DNA of 20,102 nt, from positions 1-20,102 of the IMG/VR virus record IMGVR_UViG_3300010430_000560; one strand, 5' to 3'. The position numbers were made by a program, and so were the translations under genes. Under the pieces are notes generated by a model that saw only the letters and a list, made by a program, of their open reading frames with translations, searched no databases and had not been told where the DNA came from. Positions 41 to 18,509 of this stretch are shown here, piece by piece (position 1 is the first letter of the stretch; each line of letters starts with the position of its first letter). Source of the DNA: a virus.

Positions 41-2089
41 TTATGAAGTGGCGGCGGTAGGAATGCGAATTAAAAACCAAGCGCGTTGCTTACCGGCGGT
101 CGGGAATGAGCTAATTGTTGTTACAGTAAATCCAGTGGTTGTTTTACTTGTTATGTAGCAATGAAAACCACCACTCCATTGGGTCAGTCCTTCAGATAAA
201 ATAATCTCGTAATTAGTATCGGGTTCACTCGCTCCAAAAACTACGGCATTTGAATTATTCGTTCCACCCGGCCAAGTCGCTAATCCATGAAAATTCTTTG
301 AGGCAGTTGTTGTTGTTGATAATCGATTAACATTGACCAAACCAAGTGAGGAACCATTAAACGTTACATGATCAAAACGCTCTGGTCCGGTCGATAATAG
401 GTTTTCTGCGACTAGTGAAGTGACATCCGCACCGGGCGTGCTTAATTCCGATGTAACGCAAGCACCAATTCTGTTGTTAGAAACGATAGCTTTTGTCGCT
501 CCACCAACACCTACGCCCAACACATAAATTCCGCGAAGTGAAACGTTGTTTGTAATTAAGTTATTGTTCGTAATTAATGTTTCATCTGTTGAACCTATAT
601 GTATACCAGTATCGACAGGCTCAATGATTATATTATTGGTTACATTTGTTCCGTTTGATGCAGGATCACCACCTGTTAGCCGGTCAACGGTAATTGCATT
701 ATCTTCTATTTTATCAAGGATATTATTAGAAATAATTGTGTTATCACTGGTTTTTACGGCAATACCTGTACCAGTTGAAACAACAGCTTGATTGCTTATA
801 TAATTGTCAGTAATAATGACATCAAATGCTATAGTTGTTACTTTAGCAACTTCTATACCTTCGGTTGTAAATCCAGTAATATTATTCCCTGAAATTATGA
901 CATCTGAGGCTTGTAAAACTCTGATTCCGTGGGTTGCACCCGACATAATATTATTCTGAATTGACGCTCCACTTGCATCGACTCGAACACTGACATTTGC
1001 TAGTGTATTACCCTCAAAATGATTGCTTTGTATTTGAGTATTGACAGCATTAGCACTTGTCACTTGTATGCCTTCAGACCCATTCTGAATATGCGTATCA
1101 AAAATATCGACATCGCCTACCGTTACAGTCGCGCCTATTCCTTCGATGGTTTGACCAGCATTATTAACGTCAATGGTAATATCGCGCATCGTTGAACCAT
1201 CAGAACCCACGCCAAATGTTATGAAATCCGCATCTGAGTTTGCGGCCATTTTTAATGTGCCAACACCAATAAAATGAATCTTTTTAGTAATCGTATCAGG
1301 TTGTATAACGGCAATACCATCAGGTACGAATAATGTCCCGCCTGCCGTTATTGCTGCAATACAATTAGTATATGCGGTATTATCATCCACCCCATCCATT
1401 TTAGCGCCATAACGTCGTAAATCGCCTATTGGGAATTCGTAATTGGTTACTCCAGCCTCCGTACCAGGATAGAAACGATAGTGGATTGCACGATCAGCAT
1501 CCACTCGCTGAATGGATAATGAAACAGTCGTCATTACAGGGTCGAGAACAGCCGCCGCACCTGTACTGTCTTGGATATCAACTAATGATACTGTAGTGTC
1601 TCCCGCAAAAGATGACGCGAATATGGTTGCATATCGGTTGTTTCCACCAGATAACCAGACTTTGCGTCCTTTATGGAAATCAGCGGTAACATCTATTCCT
1701 GTAATATTAAACGTTGTACCAGAAACATAAACCGCAGTGATACCTGTCAGCCATTGGCCTGATGCACCAGAACCGGCACCCCCAGTATCCGTAACATTAT
1801 CCACCGTCCAAATTGGTGTTGTAGGCGGATCAGTATCGGTATCGGTTGTATAAACGACTTTATAAGATAAGCCCGGCGTAAAATACACATCAATTGGCGT
1901 ACCTGCATTACCGGGTTCACCCCTGGCATTTAAGATAATCGGGTTTGGATTGGCAACAGCAAGGCTAGAATCCGTAAAGGTATCTTGTTTCGTCGTTGTA
2001 CCTGCTATATAAAAAAACAATTGATGGCCAGTGGCCAATATACTATTGGCATCATCAAATGTCGGTCTTACGTATGGCATTAATCCCAT
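41..2089 (-). CDS. tailspike / beta-helix receptor-binding protein
   Basis: Product of 682 aa. Residues 1-100 look like the head- or tail-binding N-terminal domain of podovirus tailspikes: an MPYVRPTF opening, then a GHQLFFYIAGT segment and a short beta-rich repeat ending in IWTVDNVT. Residues 110-210 form a second beta-rich domain. At 223-240 the DLRRYGAKMDGVDDNTAY segment matches the typical entry into pectate-lyase-like right-handed beta helices. Residues 250-570 carry the short N- and I-rich coils of such a helix (for example IISNNILDKI). The last 100 residues are a separate beta-rich domain, probably for trimerisation or binding. Role by family: trimeric fibre that binds or cleaves surface polysaccharide; catalytic residues were not identified. 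It is last after the ejection genes, comparable to P22 gp9. A terminator ends 13 bases before the start. The first ATG has GGGAAA upstream; an in-frame ATG at 2080 (residue 4) is an alternative. Confidence 0.85.
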   Translation of the reverse strand: MGLMPYVRPTFDDANSILATGHQLFFYIAGTTTKQDTFTDSSLAVANPNPIILNARGEPGNAGTPIDVYFTPGLSYKVVYTTDTDTDPPTTPIWTVDNVTDTGGAGSGASGQWLTGITAVYVSGTTFNITGIDVTADFHKGRKVWLSGGNNRYATIFASSFAGDTTVSLVDIQDSTGAAAVLDPVMTTVSLSIQRVDADRAIHYRFYPGTEAGVTNYEFPIGDLRRYGAKMDGVDDNTAYTNCIAAITAGGTLFVPDGIAVIQPDTITKKIHFIGVGTLKMAANSDADFITFGVGSDGSTMRDITIDVNNAGQTIEGIGATVTVGDVDIFDTHIQNGSEGIQVTSANAVNTQIQSNHFEGNTLANVSVRVDASGASIQNNIMSGATHGIRVLQASDVIISGNNITGFTTEGIEVAKVTTIAFDVIITDNYISNQAVVSTGTGIAVKTSDNTIISNNILDKIEDNAITVDRLTGGDPASNGTNVTNNIIIEPVDTGIHIGSTDETLITNNNLITNNVSLRGIYVLGVGVGGATKAIVSNNRIGACVTSELSTPGADVTSLVAENLLSTGPERFDHVTFNGSSLGLVNVNRLSTTTTASKNFHGLATWPGGTNNSNAVVFGASEPDTNYEIILSEGLTQWSGGFHCYITSKTTTGFTVTTISSFPTAGKQRAWFLIRIPTAATS

Positions 2090-7302: not shown

Positions 7303-8082
7303 TTATACCGTTGTTTCGTATTGGACTATTTCAAAATCTACGGATATCGCACCCGTTCCTGTACCAAATCTTCCCATATAACCAATATCTACTGGACCAA
7401 CAAATGGACCCTGTGGAGCGGCAACGTCAATTGCTAATGAAAAACCTGTTACGCCCACTAATTCTAAACCCGCTTTCATTGCGCTAAATGGGGCTGCGAC
7501 TATATCTGCGTTATCTCTGGTGAAAAAGATAACATCTGCTGATTTGTTAGAATCTACTGACAAATAGTGGGGATAAACAACAGCGGATTTTCCATTAGGT
7601 ACAGTATATACACCGCATTGTGTTTGCCCTCTTGGGAACCCTGCCGATGGAATTAATAACCATGTTGGCCCTGCACCGGCTGTTCGTAGCGTCAAATCAC
7701 CAACATGCGATGGGACCGTTTGTGTGGCATAACTACCAGAATCGGTTACTTTCATTCTAAATGCGCGAGTTAAATTAATAGGTACGCTCACAGCGCCCAA
7801 ACCATTCATATTTACTGTTTGCGAAACGTAATTCCAACCAGCATCTAATCCCTCGATTGTTACTGTTCTTGCCCCGGCCCCAGCCAATGTGTCGCTTGCA
7901 CTTGACGAAACAATTTCTAACGCTACCGCTGCGGTTGGTGTTTGATACAAACCACCCCTCGCTATAGGAACAAAGGTTGTTCCTACTGCGTCATTTGTTC
8001 CAAATTTATGTACTTCGTCATATTCATCGATTAATCCACGCGTTACGTTAAGCCAAAAACTATCGTTGGGGCTAAAACTCAT
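7303..8082 (-). CDS. conserved-type phage structural protein, beta-rich
   Basis: Product of 259 aa from the ATG at 8082. A longer reading from a GTG at 8094 is possible but less likely: the ATG forms an ATGA overlap with the upstream stop, as several neighbours do. The text includes VHKFGTNDAVGTTFVPIARG near residue 25, then SDTLAGAGARTVTIEGLD followed by a second beta repeat, and YTVPNGKSAVVYPHYLSVD near 160. From memory this order (FGxN opening, a GARTVxIxGLD segment, a YTVPxGK segment) is common in uncharacterised virion proteins of environmental podoviruses. Function is unknown; it probably sits on the tail or head surface. It lies between the gp10-like hub gene and the ejection genes. 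Confidence 0.7.
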   Translation of the reverse strand: MSFSPNDSFWLNVTRGLIDEYDEVHKFGTNDAVGTTFVPIARGGLYQTPTAAVALEIVSSSASDTLAGAGARTVTIEGLDAGWNYVSQTVNMNGLGAVSVPINLTRAFRMKVTDSGSYATQTVPSHVGDLTLRTAGAGPTWLLIPSAGFPRGQTQCGVYTVPNGKSAVVYPHYLSVDSNKSADVIFFTRDNADIVAAPFSAMKAGLELVGVTGFSLAIDVAAPQGPFVGPVDIGYMGRFGTGTGAISVDFEIVQYETTV

Positions 8083-8525
8083 ATGACGTACCACTCATTA
8101 TCAATGGAAGAATAAATGCATTGGGCTGCTTCATAGTTAGTGATTAGTTTATAGTTTGTTGTTCCGTCGATTGCGCTTGCGCTAATTGTTACAGTACCTA
8201 ATCCTGTGGCTCGCTTGACTGTCACTTTTTCTTCATTGATAGGATTGGGATTTAAGGTAATCGTGATGTTGGATGTCGCAACGATAATGGAATTACCATA
8301 GGTGGTGAAATCTGTTCCCGTTGAAATGAATTGGGTGTCACTGTCAAAAAAAGGTGTTCCCCAAGAATACGTTGCAATACTTTCTTCGGTATCTGACGTT
8401 ATTGCATCCGTTGGGCCGCCTGTTCTTTCCCACAATTGGTTTAGAAAGATAAACGCTAAATCAGTTAATCTTCCGTCGTCATTGGTAAACTTAATCTGAG
8501 AATCAAAAAGATATACTTCAGTCAT
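8079..8525 (-). CDS. small tail protein in the tail-needle position
   Basis: Product of 148 aa. Residues 15-38 (DGRLTDLAFIFLNQLWERTG) form a short amphipathic helix-like opening; the rest alternates like beta strands and closes with YEAAQCIYSSIDNEWYVI, an ending that I recall from knob or fibre proteins. In P22 the gene after gp10 encodes the tail needle gp26, but that protein has a long heptad coiled coil and none is visible here. It may be a reduced plug, a fibre tip or an unrelated tail protein. It overlaps the gp10-like gene at its start (ATGA) and the 259-aa gene at its end (ATGA), so its translation is coupled on both sides. Confidence 0.6.
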   Translation of the reverse strand: MTEVYLFDSQIKFTNDDGRLTDLAFIFLNQLWERTGGPTDAITSDTEESIATYSWGTPFFDSDTQFISTGTDFTTYGNSIIVATSNITITLNPNPINEEKVTVKRATGLGTVTISASAIDGTTNYKLITNYEAAQCIYSSIDNEWYVI

Positions 8526-10617: not shown

Positions 10618-13017
10618 TTACTTAGCCCCTTCTAATGCTTCAATTCGCGTTAATAATTGATCGATATGAGCGGCTTGTAATTCGACGGTTTCCCATAACT
10701 TTTGAACCATCTTGCCGGTTGGTAATGGACCATCTTCAATCCATTCCTCTTTAGAAGGCATTGTTGGTAAATGTTTCTTGGTTTTCCAAAAGTCGGTAAA
10801 CTTGGTTACATCGATACGATTATCGATGTCATCAACAAATCGTCTTGCCGGTTCATGGAATGTTTTTAATTCTTCTTTATTGGGTACAAATCCATCCCAT
10901 TCAGATAAATCGATTTTGCCGTCAACGATGTAATGAGGTACATAACACGTGAGTAATACACCATCATCATAAACAGCGGTTGCATTGAATGTTCCTGATC
11001 CTTGAGAACCACCTGTGGCACCAACCATGAATGCGCCTTGGTCGGAAGCTATCGTCATTGCTGTAGACGATGCACCAGATAAGAAATTTATACTTGCACC
11101 AGCTTTAGATGTACCTGCGCTTAATACACCACCGTTATAATTCCATTGTAATAAAGCACCTAAATTATCAGTTGGTGAACCGAAATAAATGCTAGAATTA
11201 GCGGCATCTGGCGCTAGAATTGATATTCCTGAATTAGCGGAATTTTCTGCAATTATTTCATTGGCGTCAATATGCGCTGTTACCGTTCCCGCCGATCCTG
11301 TATGGACATGACATTTTCCATCGGAGGTTCCAATACCTACGCCTAAATTCTGTGACGCATCAAGTGTCATTCCCAAGACATCATTACCTGAATAGAAGTC
11401 TAATTTCGCATTAGCCGTAGCGGTTCCCAATGATGCTGCTAAACCACTGTAATTCCAATTATAATAAGCGGCGAATTCATCTGAGGGTGAACCAATAGCA
11501 ATAACGCCAGTACTAGCGTCAGGCGTTAACACGCTAATACCACCATTAGTGCTGTTTTCAACAATTAAATCGTCTGCTAGGTTATTTGCTGTTACAGCTC
11601 CAGCTGTTGCTGTATGGACGTGTAATGTGCCGTCGGGATTTGTTAAATCACCAATACAGACTTCTTGATTAAACGCTATTCTTATCGCTGTTACATTACC
11701 TGATTTTAATTCTAAACTTGAGCTAGGTGCAGAGGCACCAATTGAGGCTAAATTTGCTGTTGGATTCCATGTATAAAAGGCACCAAAATTCGCGCTTGGC
11801 GATCCAAAATATAGATTAGATGAATTTGCATTAGGTGAAAGGATGCTAATGCCAGTGTTTGCGCTATTCTCGACAATCAATTCATCTGCTGAAGCACTCG
11901 CGGTAACTGTTCCTGCTGTGGCTGTCTGAACGTGCATCGTTCCATCGGGTATGGTATTTATTCCTAACGGTCCATTCACTCGATGCGCATCGTCAACAAC
12001 AATCACTTCTTGATAACCCGATGTCATGACACGATTGCTCGTACCATCTCCCGAAATTGCTACAAATAACCCATTTCCATAAACAACATCATTCCATGTA
12101 TTAGCCGCCGCACCAGTACGGATTGTCCAGTTAATTCCGTCTGGTGATGTCATTACATTGTCGGTTCCCCCACCAGCAGTGTCCCGACCAACAGCAACGA
12201 ATACACCATTACCCCAAGTAACATTATTCCACTCGGTATTAAGGCTTGTTACACGGATTGTCCAGGTAATGCCGTCAGGTGATGACATCACACCGTAATC
12301 AACGTCAATTGATGATACGGCTACAAACATACCATTGCCGTAAACAATCCCGTTCCATGAATTATCGGCAGCACTGGTGCGACTCGTCCATGTAACAGCG
12401 TCGGGTGATGTCATAACTCGATCACCTGTTCCTGTCTCGCCAACAGCGACGTATAATCCATTGCCATAGGTTACGGCATTCCATACCCTGGCAACCGGAA
12501 GCGTTTGTCCCGTCCAGGTAATACCGTCTGGTGATGACATGCAACCGCTAGTTGTGTTCTGACTCGAAACTGCGACAAATAATCCATTACCATAAACGAT
12601 TGAAGACCATGACGAGCTTAAGGGGGGTGTACGCAGTGTCCAAGTAATACCATCATATGATGTCATGACTCGCGTGCCGCCAACATTAGCAACCACGACA
12701 AATACTCCATCACCATACGCCACGCTTTGCCAACTAACATCGGCGGCGCTGGTTCTTATTGTCCAATTAACGCCATCTGGAGATGTCATTACGCGATTGC
12801 CGGTTCCCGTTTGAGCTATGGCAACAAATAAACCATTTCCGTAAGTGACAGATTTCCAATTATTATCAACCGGATTGGTTTGGCTTGTCCACGATACCCC
12901 TAATATCTCATCTGTAGCTTCAATCGTTATTACTCGACTATTCAAATCGGTAAAATTACCATCCAATTCACTATGGGTTAATGGACTATCTTTTACATTT
13001 CGTAATACAATTGTCAT
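10618..13017 (-). CDS. tail fibre-like protein: propeller repeats, 104-residue repeats, C-terminal assembly domain
   Basis: Product of 799 aa with four regions. Residues 1-35 (VLRNVKDSPLTHSELDGNF) match the widespread phage fibre attachment opening SPLTxxExDxNFxxL. Residues 43-336 are seven repeats of 41-45 residues with the core WNxVxYGNGLFVAVG and SPDGITWT, as expected for a seven-bladed beta propeller with Asp-box-like turns. Residues 358-669 are three repeats starting at D358, D462 and D566 (DGTxHVxTATAG, then ENSxNxGISIL and FGSP). Residues 676-799 (FNATAVYDDGVLLTCYV, a KKHLPTMPS stretch and a final heptad helix VELQAAHIDQLLTRIEALE) resemble C-terminal trimerisation or chaperone domains of fibres; no peptidase S74 cleavage dyad is seen. 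Likely a trimeric adhesin. It overlaps the previous small gene as ATGA. Confidence 0.82.
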   Translation of the reverse strand: MTIVLRNVKDSPLTHSELDGNFTDLNSRVITIEATDEILGVSWTSQTNPVDNNWKSVTYGNGLFVAIAQTGTGNRVMTSPDGVNWTIRTSAADVSWQSVAYGDGVFVVVANVGGTRVMTSYDGITWTLRTPPLSSSWSSIVYGNGLFVAVSSQNTTSGCMSSPDGITWTGQTLPVARVWNAVTYGNGLYVAVGETGTGDRVMTSPDAVTWTSRTSAADNSWNGIVYGNGMFVAVSSIDVDYGVMSSPDGITWTIRVTSLNTEWNNVTWGNGVFVAVGRDTAGGGTDNVMTSPDGINWTIRTGAAANTWNDVVYGNGLFVAISGDGTSNRVMTSGYQEVIVVDDAHRVNGPLGINTIPDGTMHVQTATAGTVTASASADELIVENSANTGISILSPNANSSNLYFGSPSANFGAFYTWNPTANLASIGASAPSSSLELKSGNVTAIRIAFNQEVCIGDLTNPDGTLHVHTATAGAVTANNLADDLIVENSTNGGISVLTPDASTGVIAIGSPSDEFAAYYNWNYSGLAASLGTATANAKLDFYSGNDVLGMTLDASQNLGVGIGTSDGKCHVHTGSAGTVTAHIDANEIIAENSANSGISILAPDAANSSIYFGSPTDNLGALLQWNYNGGVLSAGTSKAGASINFLSGASSTAMTIASDQGAFMVGATGGSQGSGTFNATAVYDDGVLLTCYVPHYIVDGKIDLSEWDGFVPNKEELKTFHEPARRFVDDIDNRIDVTKFTDFWKTKKHLPTMPSKEEWIEDGPLPTGKMVQKLWETVELQAAHIDQLLTRIEALEGAK
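11023..11946 (-). repeat. three tandem 104-residue repeats
   Basis: Repeat starts are at residues 358, 462 and 566 of the 799-aa protein, an exact spacing of 104 residues each time. Each unit runs DGxxHVxTxxAGxVTA, an IxENSxNxGIS segment, a GSPxxxxxAxxxWN segment and a closing beta pair. Sequence drift between units is clear, so the duplication is old rather than recent. Confidence 0.8.
12010..12891 (-). repeat. seven tandem propeller-type repeats of about 42 residues
   Basis: Seven units begin with the conserved WT at residues 43, 85, 126, 168, 210, 252 and 297 of the 799-aa protein. Unit lengths are 42, 41, 42, 42, 42, 45 and about 40 residues. The core of each is W(N/Q/S)xVxYGNGxFVAV followed by MTSPDGxxW. 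The count of seven fits a closed seven-bladed propeller. Confidence 0.88.
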
Positions 13018-13310
13018 GGGTATGTATATCCTTCATCCATATATAATGAACCACCGATTGCGGTATCATCTAATTCGACATAAGGTGGAAGTACAACAAA
13101 TTCATCTTCTGATTCTGGCCGGGTCCATTCAACTGATTGAGTATCTTTAATACCGCGTCGTCTTTCTTGGGGATGGCGCATTTCAAAATCTTTACGGCAA
13201 ACGTATACCCCGTCCCAACGTCTTAAACCTTCAGAGGCTTTGTATTTGAATCCGCAGACATCGCAGATGAAATTCCAATCGCCGTGTTTGTAAAAGTCAG
13301 CCTGGCCCAT
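13014..13310 (-). CDS. small cysteine-bearing phage protein, possible zinc ribbon
   Basis: Product of 98 aa. The segment NFICDVCGFKYKASEGLRRW, followed by DGVYVCRKDFEMRHPQ, gives C16-x2-C19, then C38 with D41 and H46 as further possible ligands. The W-x-G-x-x-V-C-x-x-D-x-E-x-RHPQ pattern is one I recall from short conserved proteins in phage structural regions, where it may bind one zinc ion. The C-terminal half is acidic and probably flexible. A structural or assembly role is inferred from the position between two adhesin-like genes; the exact task is unknown. The start is preceded by GTGGGAT, and the stop overlaps the 799-aa start (ATGA). Confidence 0.7.
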   Translation of the reverse strand: MGQADFYKHGDWNFICDVCGFKYKASEGLRRWDGVYVCRKDFEMRHPQERRRGIKDTQSVEWTRPESEDEFVVLPPYVELDDTAIGGSLYMDEGYTYP

Positions 13311-13330: not shown

Positions 13331-16273
13331 TTAGTAATTGAATATTTTTCTGCTTATTTGTTCATATCCTAATTCTGTTAAATGTTCTGGACCGCCGCCG
13401 TCATACCAGCCGCTACTTGTCATTTCATTGAAATTTGTTAGTGTAGAGATGTCTACGCTATCAATGTTAGGTACTGTTGCCGCATAGACTTCCATCGCTA
13501 GTCTATAAGATATTAATTCTGCGTCGTCTGGATCGCTTATAGGGTGACTTGGTACAACCATCCAATATATTCCACCATCGGAATAATTAGCATTCCAAAC
13601 TGATTCAACTCTTGAGACTAATGCTTTGAAATTGTCCACATAGGCTTCTGCGCTATCTGGGTCTATTATTGCGTCGGGTCCAAGAGATGGCGTTGATGTT
13701 TCATTGCGGTCATTTATACCTGCATTGACCATCATGACTATTTTAGGACTATAGCCCGCTGATTCCTGAAGTCTTCTTGCTTCTGATAAATTCAATAATA
13801 TGGAATTGTCGTGGGCCGCTATAAATGCCGCCGCCATATCGTACATACTTGTACCCCCTAATGAATACATGCTTGTATACGATATCCCGAACGTCCTTGC
13901 TTCTATTTCTCCGCGCCAAAAATAACTTAAATAAGGGGCAGTTACCGTTGTTCCGACATGACCAAATCTACAGGCAATTTGATCCGGTCTTGGTCCTACC
14001 CCAGAATTTAATGACGTAAAGGCAACTTCTTCTACACCTGTATTCGTACTAATCGGTGAACCAGTGACATAATTTGTCCAAGGTGATTTTTCTAAACGAA
14101 TCCCTGGCGTAAAAGAACCTGCGCCCGCATCAAACGTTCCATAGCAATAATGAATTTTAAAATCTTCATTTAATACATTGAAAGGGTCTTCGGTTGAAGG
14201 CGTTGTAAGAAATAAACCAAACCCTTGGACAAAAGTGGCTGCTGCTAAATAAGAATAATTTTGGGGAAATAAATTACCATCCATATAATTATCAAGCACT
14301 GTCGGCGCACCTGTTTCTGCTGCTGCTGCATCTCGATCACCTCCTGCTGCATAATAACCTAGCGCCTGTCCCGCACCGCCACTCTCGCCTGTGGTTAATA
14401 TTCCGGTCGCATATAATCCGAATGTCTTCGATAATGCAAATTGCATCCCATGATCCCACCCAATACCACCAAACGCTTGATTCGAGTCACCAATTGCCAA
14501 TATATCAATACGTCGTTCGTGTGCTTCTTCCAGTACTCTACCGACTGTACTCGTCATAAATGTACTAGAGTTTATTATTGATGGCCCATTTAATTGCCTT
14601 GGATGGAAAGGACCATAAATGCTTTGCAAACCACCAATATCTATATCGAAACCTGGAAACGGATTTCCATTAGCTGATTGTTTTAAATTATTAGTGATTT
14701 TACCAATATTCAATAAGGCTGAATCGCTTGATAATTCGTAATTATTATTTGCTCGATCCTCAAGATTGGTATCTGCCCAGGTTTGTAAATTAGCATTCGT
14801 AAAACCCGACGTTGCCGCCGCCCCACCTTCAACACTGCAAAAATCTGTGTTATAAGTTGTGGCTCCTGCTCCATCTCCAAAGATTTCTTCATTTGCCACG
14901 CCACCATTCCCAATAATACAATTGTCCATTTGAACAGTGAGCGAATAAGTAAGATTCTCATTATTGAAACGGCAACCATCTACATTGCCTGCACTAGCCG
15001 TATTATCAACGAATGTGCATCCCGCTAACGTAATGGTCTTATTTCGTGTTGATGTTGTGACGTGATTATGGCCATAGAAGGCTTGGCCTTTCTGACTTGC
15101 TGTAGCACCTGCTCTGCGAGTAGTACCATATACAAGCAATCCATAACCCGTGAAATCTCCATAACCACCTGTATAAATTGCCCCATGTTTACAAGTACAA
15201 TTAGCGGCCACCACATTTTCTAAAGTGCCTTCTGCTCCATCTGAGGCATAATAGGCGGGTCCAAAATCCCCTGTGCATCGGGTCACACTGACATTTTTAT
15301 ACGTACCTGTAGCATTCACTGTTGTGGCTAGAAAAATACCGCCAGTTGAATTGTCTCCTGTGCTGGGTGTACTTATACAATCCGTTGCAACAACATCTTC
15401 CACCTCATATGTAAATGCCGCATAACACAGAATAGCCCCGGCTGTACCACCCGTCCAAGTGCATCCCGATATATCGACATTGTAAATTTTAACGTCCACA
15501 CTCGCGATACATTGAATAAAAGAACGGTGCGCGTTTGTTGCCGTTTGAATGGATGTCACATTGGAAATACTGATTCGACTCGTTGTATCACCAAATTGTA
15601 TATCGGCCCCATCTGCCCAAATGAATGCGCGATGGGTCGCTCCATCATACGAACCGTGTATTCTGTTGAATGTACAACCACCAATAAATCGAACGGTGCC
15701 TGTTCGAAATCGTCCAATCACCACCCCACCCGTACCACCGGATAAACGGATATTTGAAAAATCACATGCATTAAAGGTAAACACTCTGCTAGTGCTTACG
15801 GCACCATAAGCAATTAATCCCAAGTCATTGCTACCCGATGGCAATGTGCATGTAATATCATCAAATTTACAATTATTGTATGTTACATCCGTCATTGCAC
15901 TTGAGGCTTGAAACATTACATACTGCCCAGTAACGGCTGTCGTGCGTTTGAATGTAATATTATTTAAAACAAGTGTTGATGAGGCTACGGCAGTATTCAT
16001 ATTAACGCCATTTGATGTAGTCATCTGAAAATCTACAATACAATTCGCCGCATTACTCCCTCGGCTTGACCATGTTTTCGCATTATCAAACTTAATACCT
16101 GTTAATATCGACGTGATAACAAACGTATCATCATCAAGGATCATTTCATCGCCATCGGTTAAAGCAGCCGACCCTGTTTCTAATGAGGCATAACAATTTG
16201 CATTCGTCCAATCATCAGGGGTTGAAGCGCCTGTTGTTTTGGTTCCGCTATTTTTTACGTGGAAAACTGCCAT
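13331..16273 (-). CDS. beta-helix virion protein fused to SGNH/GDSL esterase-like module
   Basis: Product of 980 aa. Residues 1-540 are a right-handed beta helix: short N-, T- and C-rich coils such as LVLNNITFKRTT and VVAANCTCKHGAIYTGGYG. Residues 544-563 carry a motif shared with the upstream protein. Residues 590-980 look like an SGNH hydrolase: block I at G595-D596-S597-N598 (LAIGDSN), a possible block II at G806-G807 (YSLGGTS), block III at G852-I853-N854-D855 (NAGINDRNE), and block V near H964 (GPEHLTELGY). D958 lies six residues before H964 instead of the usual three, so the Asp partner is uncertain. By family such modules remove acetyl groups from surface polysaccharide, which would help the phage reach its receptor. 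Translation is coupled to the 589-aa gene by TAATG. Confidence 0.8.
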   Translation of the reverse strand: MAVFHVKNSGTKTTGASTPDDWTNANCYASLETGSAALTDGDEMILDDDTFVITSILTGIKFDNAKTWSSRGSNAANCIVDFQMTTSNGVNMNTAVASSTLVLNNITFKRTTAVTGQYVMFQASSAMTDVTYNNCKFDDITCTLPSGSNDLGLIAYGAVSTSRVFTFNACDFSNIRLSGGTGGVVIGRFRTGTVRFIGGCTFNRIHGSYDGATHRAFIWADGADIQFGDTTSRISISNVTSIQTATNAHRSFIQCIASVDVKIYNVDISGCTWTGGTAGAILCYAAFTYEVEDVVATDCISTPSTGDNSTGGIFLATTVNATGTYKNVSVTRCTGDFGPAYYASDGAEGTLENVVAANCTCKHGAIYTGGYGDFTGYGLLVYGTTRRAGATASQKGQAFYGHNHVTTSTRNKTITLAGCTFVDNTASAGNVDGCRFNNENLTYSLTVQMDNCIIGNGGVANEEIFGDGAGATTYNTDFCSVEGGAAATSGFTNANLQTWADTNLEDRANNNYELSSDSALLNIGKITNNLKQSANGNPFPGFDIDIGGLQSIYGPFHPRQLNGPSIINSSTFMTSTVGRVLEEAHERRIDILAIGDSNQAFGGIGWDHGMQFALSKTFGLYATGILTTGESGGAGQALGYYAAGGDRDAAAAETGAPTVLDNYMDGNLFPQNYSYLAAATFVQGFGLFLTTPSTEDPFNVLNEDFKIHYCYGTFDAGAGSFTPGIRLEKSPWTNYVTGSPISTNTGVEEVAFTSLNSGVGPRPDQIACRFGHVGTTVTAPYLSYFWRGEIEARTFGISYTSMYSLGGTSMYDMAAAFIAAHDNSILLNLSEARRLQESAGYSPKIVMMVNAGINDRNETSTPSLGPDAIIDPDSAEAYVDNFKALVSRVESVWNANYSDGGIYWMVVPSHPISDPDDAELISYRLAMEVYAATVPNIDSVDISTLTNFNEMTSSGWYDGGGPEHLTELGYEQISRKIFNY
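14585..14644 (-). repeat. shared beta-helix end motif, copy in the 980-aa gene
   Basis: Codes residues 544-563, IDIGGLQSIYGPFHPRQLNG, at the border between beta helix and SGNH module. By hand alignment about 49 of 60 bases match the copy at 16285-16344, and 19 of 20 residues are identical. Confidence 0.9.
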
Positions 16274-18042
16274 TATCTAATTACCCCATTTAACTGCCTT
16301 GGGTGGAATGGGCCATAGATAGATTGCGAACCTCCAATATCAATACTAAACGCGGCGAATGGTTCTCCGATAAAACTTACTGCTTTTGCGGTTAAGCCTG
16401 CATTCGGAGAAACACCAACACCAGTAGCACCTTTTTTTAAGGTGTAATCAGAATTAAATACATCTTCTTCGGAATCGACTTCTACGCCGTTTGTTTCTCT
16501 TGCGGCAAGCCATAATGCGACTGTTGAATAAGTAGTCGCTTGATACGTAAAGACCGTAGCTGGTAATGTTCCAGTAATTAAATAATGGTTGTAATCAAAT
16601 GTTGCTGTTTGATTCGTGTTGATAGTGATTAATTGATTTAATGCATTTGCTTCGGCATAAATATAATTGTTATCGAATTCTGCACCTGTGGTGTTTGTAG
16701 CACCATCGATTGCCGCGCCAAAAGCCACTGCATCTGTATCTGAATCAATTATCGCGGTATTGTTATAAAAATCGTCATTTGTCCCGCCCTTGTTGTAATA
16801 CATAACATTACTTGATCCACCAAGCCCGCACTGTTTAACGAGATTTCCCGCTACTTTCGTCGTTGCTGAAAGTTTCGCCATAATTCCGATATCGACAAAA
16901 CTTGCCGTATTTCCATACATTTCACAACTGTCATTTTCGACAATAAAAATGCCATGTAAATTATTTGATACGCCTGTCGCGTCACCGATAGCAGTACAAT
17001 TTATTATTTCTGAATTATCGGATACGTTGGCCTGTCGTGCGCCACCATCACCACCCACCGTAATACAACCACCCGCACCCGTTGTTGCGTCCCAACCATA
17101 TGCCCTTACCGTCGAGTTGTGAATTTTTTGTCGCTCTGCTGTTAACCCAGCATCATTACCAAACAAACGTATCCCGTTAATGCTCCACGTTGCACCGCTC
17201 GCCGCCTGTGTGAATGTTAAATCGCAACCTTCCACTAATGCGTCAGGGCAATTAGCAATGAAAATGCCATACATCAGACTATCTACTGCAACATCTGTTG
17301 AGTTAATGCTTATATTCGCTGTAACGTTTTTAACTTCAGCTTGAACACCGGCTACAGAGGCATCCCAATAGATTACTCCACTACCGTTAGTGGCCCATTT
17401 TGAATGATTTATCGTGGCACCGTCTATTGTGAGTTTGCCTGCCGCGTGGGTTGGAGAATAGACCATTCCACGACTCGTTATTCTGTTTATTGTATAGCTG
17501 CAATCATTAAAGGTTATATTGGCTAATCCATTTGCGCCTACATTAATGCCATAAAACACCATATTTCTGAATTCGCATCTTGTCGCCGTTATAGATGGAG
17601 CCGTACCCGTACCCCCTAATGTCCATATTCCATAATTTCCATCATCCCCACCTTCCGCCGTCGATAATCTTCCTAAAATTAAATCTCGCCATTCGACCGA
17701 CTTGCTGCTATCCCAGCCCGTCGCGTTATTCATTCGTACTGTGGAAGTCGCTACACCCGCTATGATTGTTACTTCACCAGCATTTTCCGGTCTAACTAAA
17801 CATGAATCAAACCCTGGATTCGCTGGCCATATCCAATATTGATTAGCCGCATCGATATCTGCACCAATATAATTACCGTCATTTATGATGATAGTGATTG
17901 CGCCACTAGTGGCGTAAGCTGCATCGCTAGCTGCATCTAGGGTTAGGAATGCGTCAGTTTTTGATTCGCCACCATTCCCATCATTACCAATGAAATATCC
18001 ATTATCTGTTGATTTGCTCACATAGTAGGTTTCATCGGCCAT
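16273..18042 (-). CDS. beta-helix virion protein, probable adhesin or fibre
   Basis: Product of 589 aa. Residues 4-40 (YYVSKSTDNGYFIGNDGNGG then AFLTLDAASDAAY) resemble the entry segment of phage and bacterial beta-helix proteins. From about residue 60 to 550 the sequence consists of short N- and G-rich beta coils (IINDGNYIGADI, ITATRCEFRNMVFYGINVG, EMYGNTASFVDIGI). The last 23 residues carry IDIGGSQSIYGPFHPRQLNG, which also marks the helix end in the 980-aa neighbour; here the protein stops three residues later, so it lacks the esterase module. Role: probably a surface fibre or spike; no catalytic residues recognised. The start has AAGGTG eight bases upstream inside the end of the previous gene. 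The stop overlaps the next start (TAATG), suggesting the two are made in linked amounts. Confidence 0.78.
   Translation of the reverse strand: MADETYYVSKSTDNGYFIGNDGNGGESKTDAFLTLDAASDAAYATSGAITIIINDGNYIGADIDAANQYWIWPANPGFDSCLVRPENAGEVTIIAGVATSTVRMNNATGWDSSKSVEWRDLILGRLSTAEGGDDGNYGIWTLGGTGTAPSITATRCEFRNMVFYGINVGANGLANITFNDCSYTINRITSRGMVYSPTHAAGKLTIDGATINHSKWATNGSGVIYWDASVAGVQAEVKNVTANISINSTDVAVDSLMYGIFIANCPDALVEGCDLTFTQAASGATWSINGIRLFGNDAGLTAERQKIHNSTVRAYGWDATTGAGGCITVGGDGGARQANVSDNSEIINCTAIGDATGVSNNLHGIFIVENDSCEMYGNTASFVDIGIMAKLSATTKVAGNLVKQCGLGGSSNVMYYNKGGTNDDFYNNTAIIDSDTDAVAFGAAIDGATNTTGAEFDNNYIYAEANALNQLITINTNQTATFDYNHYLITGTLPATVFTYQATTYSTVALWLAARETNGVEVDSEEDVFNSDYTLKKGATGVGVSPNAGLTAKAVSFIGEPFAAFSIDIGGSQSIYGPFHPRQLNGVIR
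16285..16344 (-). repeat. shared beta-helix end motif, copy in the 589-aa gene
   Basis: Codes residues 567-586, IDIGGSQSIYGPFHPRQLNG, just before the stop codon. It differs from the copy in the 980-aa protein at one residue (S for L), although about 11 of 60 bases differ. Confidence 0.9.
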
Positions 18043-18044
18043 TG

Positions 18045-18509
18045 TTATACACCTTGCGTAACCATGATGATTTGGACTTGTGCTGAAACGCCGTCTACTA
18101 AGGCAAAATGGGTCGCATTAGCGGGTATACTTAACGTTACAGGTATCGCCACACCACCAGCGGTACTATCCCCTGAAGGAATAATGATTCCGGTTGTTCC
18201 AACAGCCGCAGCGATATTAAGATTGGCAATCGCATTTGCAGCTGATGTACCAAACGCCAACACCGCGAATTCTTCCAATCCGGTAACTTCCAAACTCTGC
18301 AACAATAATTTAGACGCACCTGAAGCAATCGCCGTCGCTACGCCTGTCGCGGTTGTCGTAATTTTTCCGGTATAACTGGAAGGTACAAAATCACTATTGG
18401 ATTTCATCCCCCCGCTCATCACATTGATTGGGGTTGTTTGTGCCTTGCCTGTATCATTCTGTAAGACATCGTAAACGTCTTTACCATGGACAATTGTGTT
18501 TGTTCCCAT
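18045..18509 (-). CDS. small virion structural protein, possible decoration protein
   Basis: Product of 154 aa. The N-terminus (HGKDVYDVLQNDTGKAQTTP) is polar; the rest is rich in A, T, V and I with strand-like alternation, including LLLQSLEVTGLEEFAVLAFG and VAIPVTLSIPANATHFALVD. From memory, segments of the type VxFGTSAANA are common in small beta-sandwich proteins near phage capsid genes. A place on the capsid or at the base of fibres is likely from the context, but no named family is recognised. The ribosome binding site AAGGGGA lies five bases before the ATG, among the strongest in the window, which fits a protein needed in many copies. Confidence 0.65.
   Translation of the reverse strand: MGTNTIVHGKDVYDVLQNDTGKAQTTPINVMSGGMKSNSDFVPSSYTGKITTTATGVATAIASGASKLLLQSLEVTGLEEFAVLAFGTSAANAIANLNIAAAVGTTGIIIPSGDSTAGGVAIPVTLSIPANATHFALVDGVSAQVQIIMVTQGV

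Follow-up and report, generated by a model that had tools for sequence, protein, structure and literature searches.

The question raised by this locus is why two neighbouring beta-helix proteins of one virus carry an almost identical stretch of 20 residues, at the end of one protein and in the interior of the other. The window, that is, the whole stretch of DNA analysed here, is a 20.1-kb virus record. Since it encodes a major head protein (PF25209, phrog_371), a head-tail adaptor-like protein, a P22 gp10-like stabilisation protein (phrog_578) and a DNA-ejection protein, the virus is probably a podophage. The two genes of interest, for a 589-aa and a 980-aa protein, share a TAATG at positions 16271-16275 (minus strand), with the stop codon of the former running into the start codon of the latter, as the initial annotation had read it. 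The shared end motif that it described was confirmed together with its coordinates: 19 of the 20 residues are identical, and 11 of the 60 bases differ (49 of the 60 agree).

Table. Features of the window related to the motif, with their positions and the evidence for each.
Feature	Positions	Strand	Description
682-aa beta-helix protein	41-2089	-	PF13229, NosD; N-terminal 100 residues match phrog_26190; without motif
980-aa protein	13331..16273	-	beta-helix body, motif, SGNH-like C-terminal module; without family match
C-terminal module of 980-aa protein	13334..14584	-	residues 564-980 (417 residues); SGNH-like blocks GDS 595, GIND 852, HLTELGY 964
Motif copy 1, IDIGGLQSIYGPFHPRQLNG	14585-14644	-	residues 544-563 of 980-aa protein; read directly
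End-piece of 980-aa protein	14591..14671	-	residues 535-561; blastp 63% over 27 aa, E 3e-8 to L002; 48%, E 8e-5 to L007a
589-aa protein	16273..18042	-	beta-helix character, motif at end; weak NosD/beta-helix-repeat matches
Motif copy 2, IDIGGSQSIYGPFHPRQLNG	16285-16344	-	residues 567-586 of 589-aa protein, then VIR-stop; read directly
End-piece of 589-aa protein	16291..16500	-	residues 515-584; blastp 41% over 71 aa, E 2e-11 to L002; 28% over 92 aa, E 2e-4 to L007a
154-aa small protein, ends VTQGV	18045..18509	-	directly upstream of pair; resembles small proteins upstream of L002 and L007 motif proteins

The motif likeness between the two proteins is far beyond chance. Their full local alignment had a score of 199 (maximum of 91 in 200 shuffles), which dropped to 101 once the motif was masked. 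When the segments were tested separately, the motif alone gave z = 21 and the helix bodies z = 3.5, the latter being near the values obtained for an unrelated beta-helix protein from the window used as a control (z 1.8-2.6). The base differences between the two copies were all synonymous except for one TTG/TCG codon, and three of the bases belonged to a single AGC/TCT serine swap. For the 29-aa tails of the two proteins, the NG86 method gave a dN of 0.16 and a saturated dS of about 3. Because the synonymous sites are saturated, recent copying of the motif is effectively excluded, in agreement with the protein-level selection that had been proposed for it. Had the segment been duplicated recently, or passed from one gene to the other by gene conversion, the adjacency of the genes and the near-identity of the residues would be accounted for, but the probability of this is very low, given that the base differences are nearly all synonymous and that the motif is also present in other phages.

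We scanned viral contigs with degenerate patterns of the motif and found it in two further contigs (L002 and L007), so the restriction to this pair by which the initial annotation would have been refuted was not observed. Three proteins outside the window, all with beta-helix character, contained it. In L002, a 566-aa protein ends with GEPFPDWDIDIGGSQSLFSPFHPVNL and a stop. L007 has a tandem pair of motif proteins, as in the window: a 461-aa protein (L007a) that ends with NGKPVPDYFIDIGAVQSTFNPIHPANIG and a stop, and an adjoining 763-aa protein (L007b) in which NGEPLPDTFIDIGAVQSTANAGHPKNL is followed by about 150 aa. The motif set so far comprises five proteins from three contigs, with the consensus G-E-P-x-P-D-x-x-I-D-I-G-[GA]-x-Q-S-x-x-x-P-x-H-P-x-N-L and ten invariant columns in the alignment of the five tails. 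In an all-against-all blastp of the three contigs, the end-pieces were the only significant matches (27 to about 90 aa, E 4e-16 to 0.004); this comparison drew on 4.8 kb from L002 and 13 kb from L007, with one extra gene taken from the initial 6 kb of the contig of L007. The motif had z values of 9.7-21.3 in all 10 pairs of motif proteins, and the bodies reached at most 3.5. Since only the end-pieces matched significantly, and the bodies were no more alike than beta-helices generally are, a short C-terminal piece is kept constant on the different helix bodies of otherwise unlike phages.

The whole 589-aa and 980-aa proteins had no relatives among 50,697 phage records (tblastn, INPHARED) or 2.9 million viral contigs. 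The tblastn searches of phages and plasmids with the tail only and with the consensus tail returned no matches or matches at chance level, and the exact GPFHPRQLNG pattern occurred in no other viral contig. Three phage matches of the tail tblastn search were unrelated once read. The pattern match in L003 was a chance one, lying antisense within a redoxin-like gene, and those in L006, L008, L009 and L010 also proved to be chance once the reading frames were inspected. The motif would aid the annotation of unmatched phage proteins, as it locates relatives where whole-protein searches fail.

The sequence that comes after the motif differs among the five proteins. Three of them have a bare or near-bare end: the 589-aa protein with its 3-aa tail (VIR), and the L002 and L007a proteins, which stop 0-2 residues past the motif. 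The 980-aa protein continues with the SGNH-like module, and L007b with a coiled-coil start and a small beta module. The C-terminal module of L007b is homologous to a separate 131-aa gene located just upstream (30% identity, E 7e-15). The 131-aa gene and the copy fused into the 763-aa helix protein lie side by side at positions 1791-4479 of L007 (minus strand). The motif had been proposed as a joint for the exchange of C-terminal modules, and the fact that the five proteins, with unrelated bodies and from three contigs, continue in three different ways (stop, SGNH-like module, coiled-coil with small beta module) supports this view; the motif looks like a joint between the helix and an optional module. 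The related proposal that the 589-aa protein formerly had a C-terminal module past the motif and later lost it became improbable. Its neighbour, the 980-aa protein, does have a module at exactly that point, but the bare end is the commonest form after the motif and seems to be a regular one, as in L002 and L007a, and VIR has no similarity to the start of the SGNH-like module. We consider it very unlikely that the motif is an intramolecular-chaperone or processing site at which the protein is cleaved. Some tailspikes release a C-terminal chaperone, and the motif sits at a module boundary in the 980-aa protein; however, the 589-aa, L002 and L007a proteins have nothing left to release, and no chaperone or protease family was found past the motif in any profile library searched.

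Of the claim that the 980-aa protein carries an esterase-like module, the part based on sequence motifs held, while the profile tests were negative. The GDS, GIND and HLTELGY blocks were found in the right order in 0 of 200,000 shuffles, with a pattern that was written after the sequence was seen. The module had no Pfam match at E 5, PF13472 (SGNH hydrolase) included, and an HMM built from PF13472 matches did not separate it from shuffles. SGNH hydrolases usually have an Asp three residues before the His (DxxH); in the module of the 980-aa protein there is no Asp at -3, and the nearest one is at -6. A search for homologues of the module in 294 planctomycete genomes found none, and it was uninformative because it lacked a positive control. 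SGNH-esterase receptor-binding proteins are known from phage G7C (gp63.1) and from Klebsiella prophages (PMC13123978), and, like the 980-aa protein, they are phage appendage proteins whose C-terminus is formed by an SGNH-like module. The 980-aa protein differs from them in that the resemblance is limited to the catalytic blocks, with neither a profile match nor the Asp at -3. We infer that the predicted module may have esterase activity and a function at the host surface, where it would probably act on polysaccharide.

Bacterial beta-helix proteins often end with the layout SPaIDaG...DqrG.aR...DIGAyE, which is modelled as choice-of-anchor Q (NCBIfam NF041518), with membership assigned at a whole-protein score of at least 25 bits. 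The first half of the motif resembles this ending, yet the phage proteins are non-members by the rule of NF041518 itself: L007a had 13.2 bits (E 0.08), below the cut-off, and the profile search gave no NF041518 match for the 589-aa, 980-aa, L002 and L007b proteins. The full layout (SPAIxAG...DIGA) is present in L007a as SPAIAAG...DLNGKPVPDYFIDIGA. Both groups have the order SPaIxxG ... D/N-G-x-P ... DIG[GA] near the end of the helix, and in both a stop or diverse further sequence comes afterwards; in planctomycete NF041518-type ends, the stop comes within 0-18 aa or the protein continues for up to hundreds of residues. In contrast to choice-of-anchor Q, the phage motif has Q-S in place of E, an additional PxHPxNL tail and a phage gene context, and the scores of its proteins (13.2 bits or nothing) are far under 25. 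The PxHPxNL tail had no counterpart in the bacterial endings inspected. The alignment of the phage tail profile with eight choice-of-anchor-Q members was weak (hhalign, E 0.0024, prob 12%), and most bacterial choice-of-anchor-Q proteins were not detected by the phage tail profile. Over 392 planctomycete genomes, that profile gave three weak matches (L030, L031 and L032). One of them, L031 (E 0.003), has a choice-of-anchor-Q end and itself scores 23.8 bits against NF041518. The other two, L030 and L032, were not motif-protein-like. Judging from these likenesses, the phage end-piece may work like a choice-of-anchor-Q-type ending and may descend from one.

The most probable explanation, in which we place reasonable though not high confidence, is that phage appendage proteins with a right-handed beta-helix share a conserved end-piece of about 30-70 residues at the C-terminus, and that the motif is its core. 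The first half of the motif (G-x-P...IDIG[GA]xQS) would stand in for the solenoid's last turn or its cap, like the bacterial SPaIdaG...DxxGxxR...DIGAyE, and the second half (PFHPRQLNG, generally PxHPxNL) would be an extension specific to phages, at which the protein either ends or is joined to an optional C-terminal module. The 589-aa protein would thus use the end-piece as a plain end, while the 980-aa protein would have the SGNH-esterase-like module added to it. The role as a cap is plausible from the order of the sequence elements; the identity of PFHPRQLNG in both window copies counts against it, as a mere cap need not keep this segment so constant. A trimer clamp, which the initial annotation had also put forward, would be another possible role. 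The sequences show that selection on the protein has conserved the end-piece, that it recurs on differing helix bodies of phages otherwise unlike each other, and that what stands behind it varies.

The support for beta-helix bodies varied among the motif proteins. L007a passed PF13229 (right-handed beta-helix) with 27.6 bits at a cut-off of 25.9, the 589-aa protein had weak matches only (NosD, E 0.011; para_beta_helix, E 0.084), and the 980-aa and L002 proteins matched no curated beta-helix profile. AF2 models, with an input alignment of five divergent rows, were unusable (mean pLDDT of 34 and 40 for the 589-aa and 980-aa proteins, respectively). The model of the 980-aa protein had regularly spaced strands at residues 100-390 (block pLDDT about 45-68), and the top PDB fold matches of this low-confidence model were beta-helices such as the P22 tailspike and polygalacturonase, all with E of 0.001 or more. 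Its BFVD fold matches were ignored, with TM-scores below about 0.25. The N-terminal parts of the 589-aa and 980-aa proteins had no family match, and no conserved virion-binding domain was found in them; their sequence is helix-like from the start. The podophage tailspikes of P22, HK620 and CBA120 (TSPs) are right-handed beta-helix appendage proteins as well, but they have a conserved N-terminal attachment domain, whereas the motif proteins have a conserved C-terminal piece and no recognised N-terminal anchor.

We also examined whether the tail could be a docking or assembly peptide that binds one common virion partner for both helices, perhaps the upstream VTQGV protein. In each of the three contigs, the gene immediately upstream of the motif proteins encodes a small protein (131-154 aa); the 154-aa protein of the window resembled that of L002 (z 8.3) and the 131-aa protein of L007 (z 5.9), with 0 of 300 shuffles as high in either case. 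The tails are more alike within one phage (23/29 and 19/28 identical) than between phages (11-17 of 27-29), and the copy of the L007 small protein fused behind the motif is a gene-fusion hint of partnership. Together, these observations make a docking role possible, and it would suit proteins that begin directly as helices. However, an old duplication also explains the within-phage likeness of the tails, the motif is internal in the 980-aa protein and L007b, and by profile the small proteins of the window and L007 were only weakly alike (hhalign, E 0.005, prob 7%), so that we regard docking as rather unlikely. Still more doubtful is a wider version, in which the end-piece would be a cassette for both C-terminal docking and module exchange: anchor-less helices would assemble through the PxHPxNL tail with the small adaptor encoded upstream, and several helices would form one mixed appendage, the reverse of N-terminal tailspike attachment.

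The surface proteins of phages evolve through part swapping, in which most known fixed points are anchors at the N-terminus. If the end-piece reading holds, such evolution would have a natural joint in a short, conserved C-terminal segment that is carried by unrelated helices and to which different modules can be attached. We regard the end-piece as a variant on beta-helix endings and phage module swapping that were already known. Domain mosaicism has been described for phage receptor-binding proteins (PMC10684548), and the motif agrees with it in being a shared part with differing partners in otherwise unlike phages; it differs in the nature of what is shared, which is the short end of a helix rather than an entire domain or an anchor at the N-terminus.

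Finally, we compared the gene order of the window with that of Rhodoferax phage P26218; the stabilisation proteins of the two are 38% identical. P26218 has three small genes between the coat gene and two genes ending in the stabiliser, and the corresponding interval of the window is occupied by the two motif proteins together with the small proteins and a fibre-like protein of 799 aa. In the latter (10618-13017, minus strand), W-T-x-R-T...W...V-x-Y-G-N-G-x-F-V-A blades occur repeatedly (EPTP, 44 bits); behind them come three repeats around NPDGTLHVHTATAG...DLIVENS and then a C-terminus resembling that of a tail fibre. A gene for a 98-aa protein with a Cys-rich, zinc-ribbon-like pattern (CDVC...C; 13014-13310, minus strand) is located between those for the 980-aa and 799-aa proteins. 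The likely conventional tailspike is the 682-aa beta-helix protein, which, unlike the motif pair, has a family match in its N-terminal part. Next to the L007 pair, a 769-aa beta-helix-like protein without the motif is encoded (L033, 444-2753, minus strand). A 148-aa protein of the window (8079-8525, minus strand) and a 167-aa protein of L007 (4555-5058, minus strand) were weakly alike (z 4.2, 0 of 300 shuffles as high).
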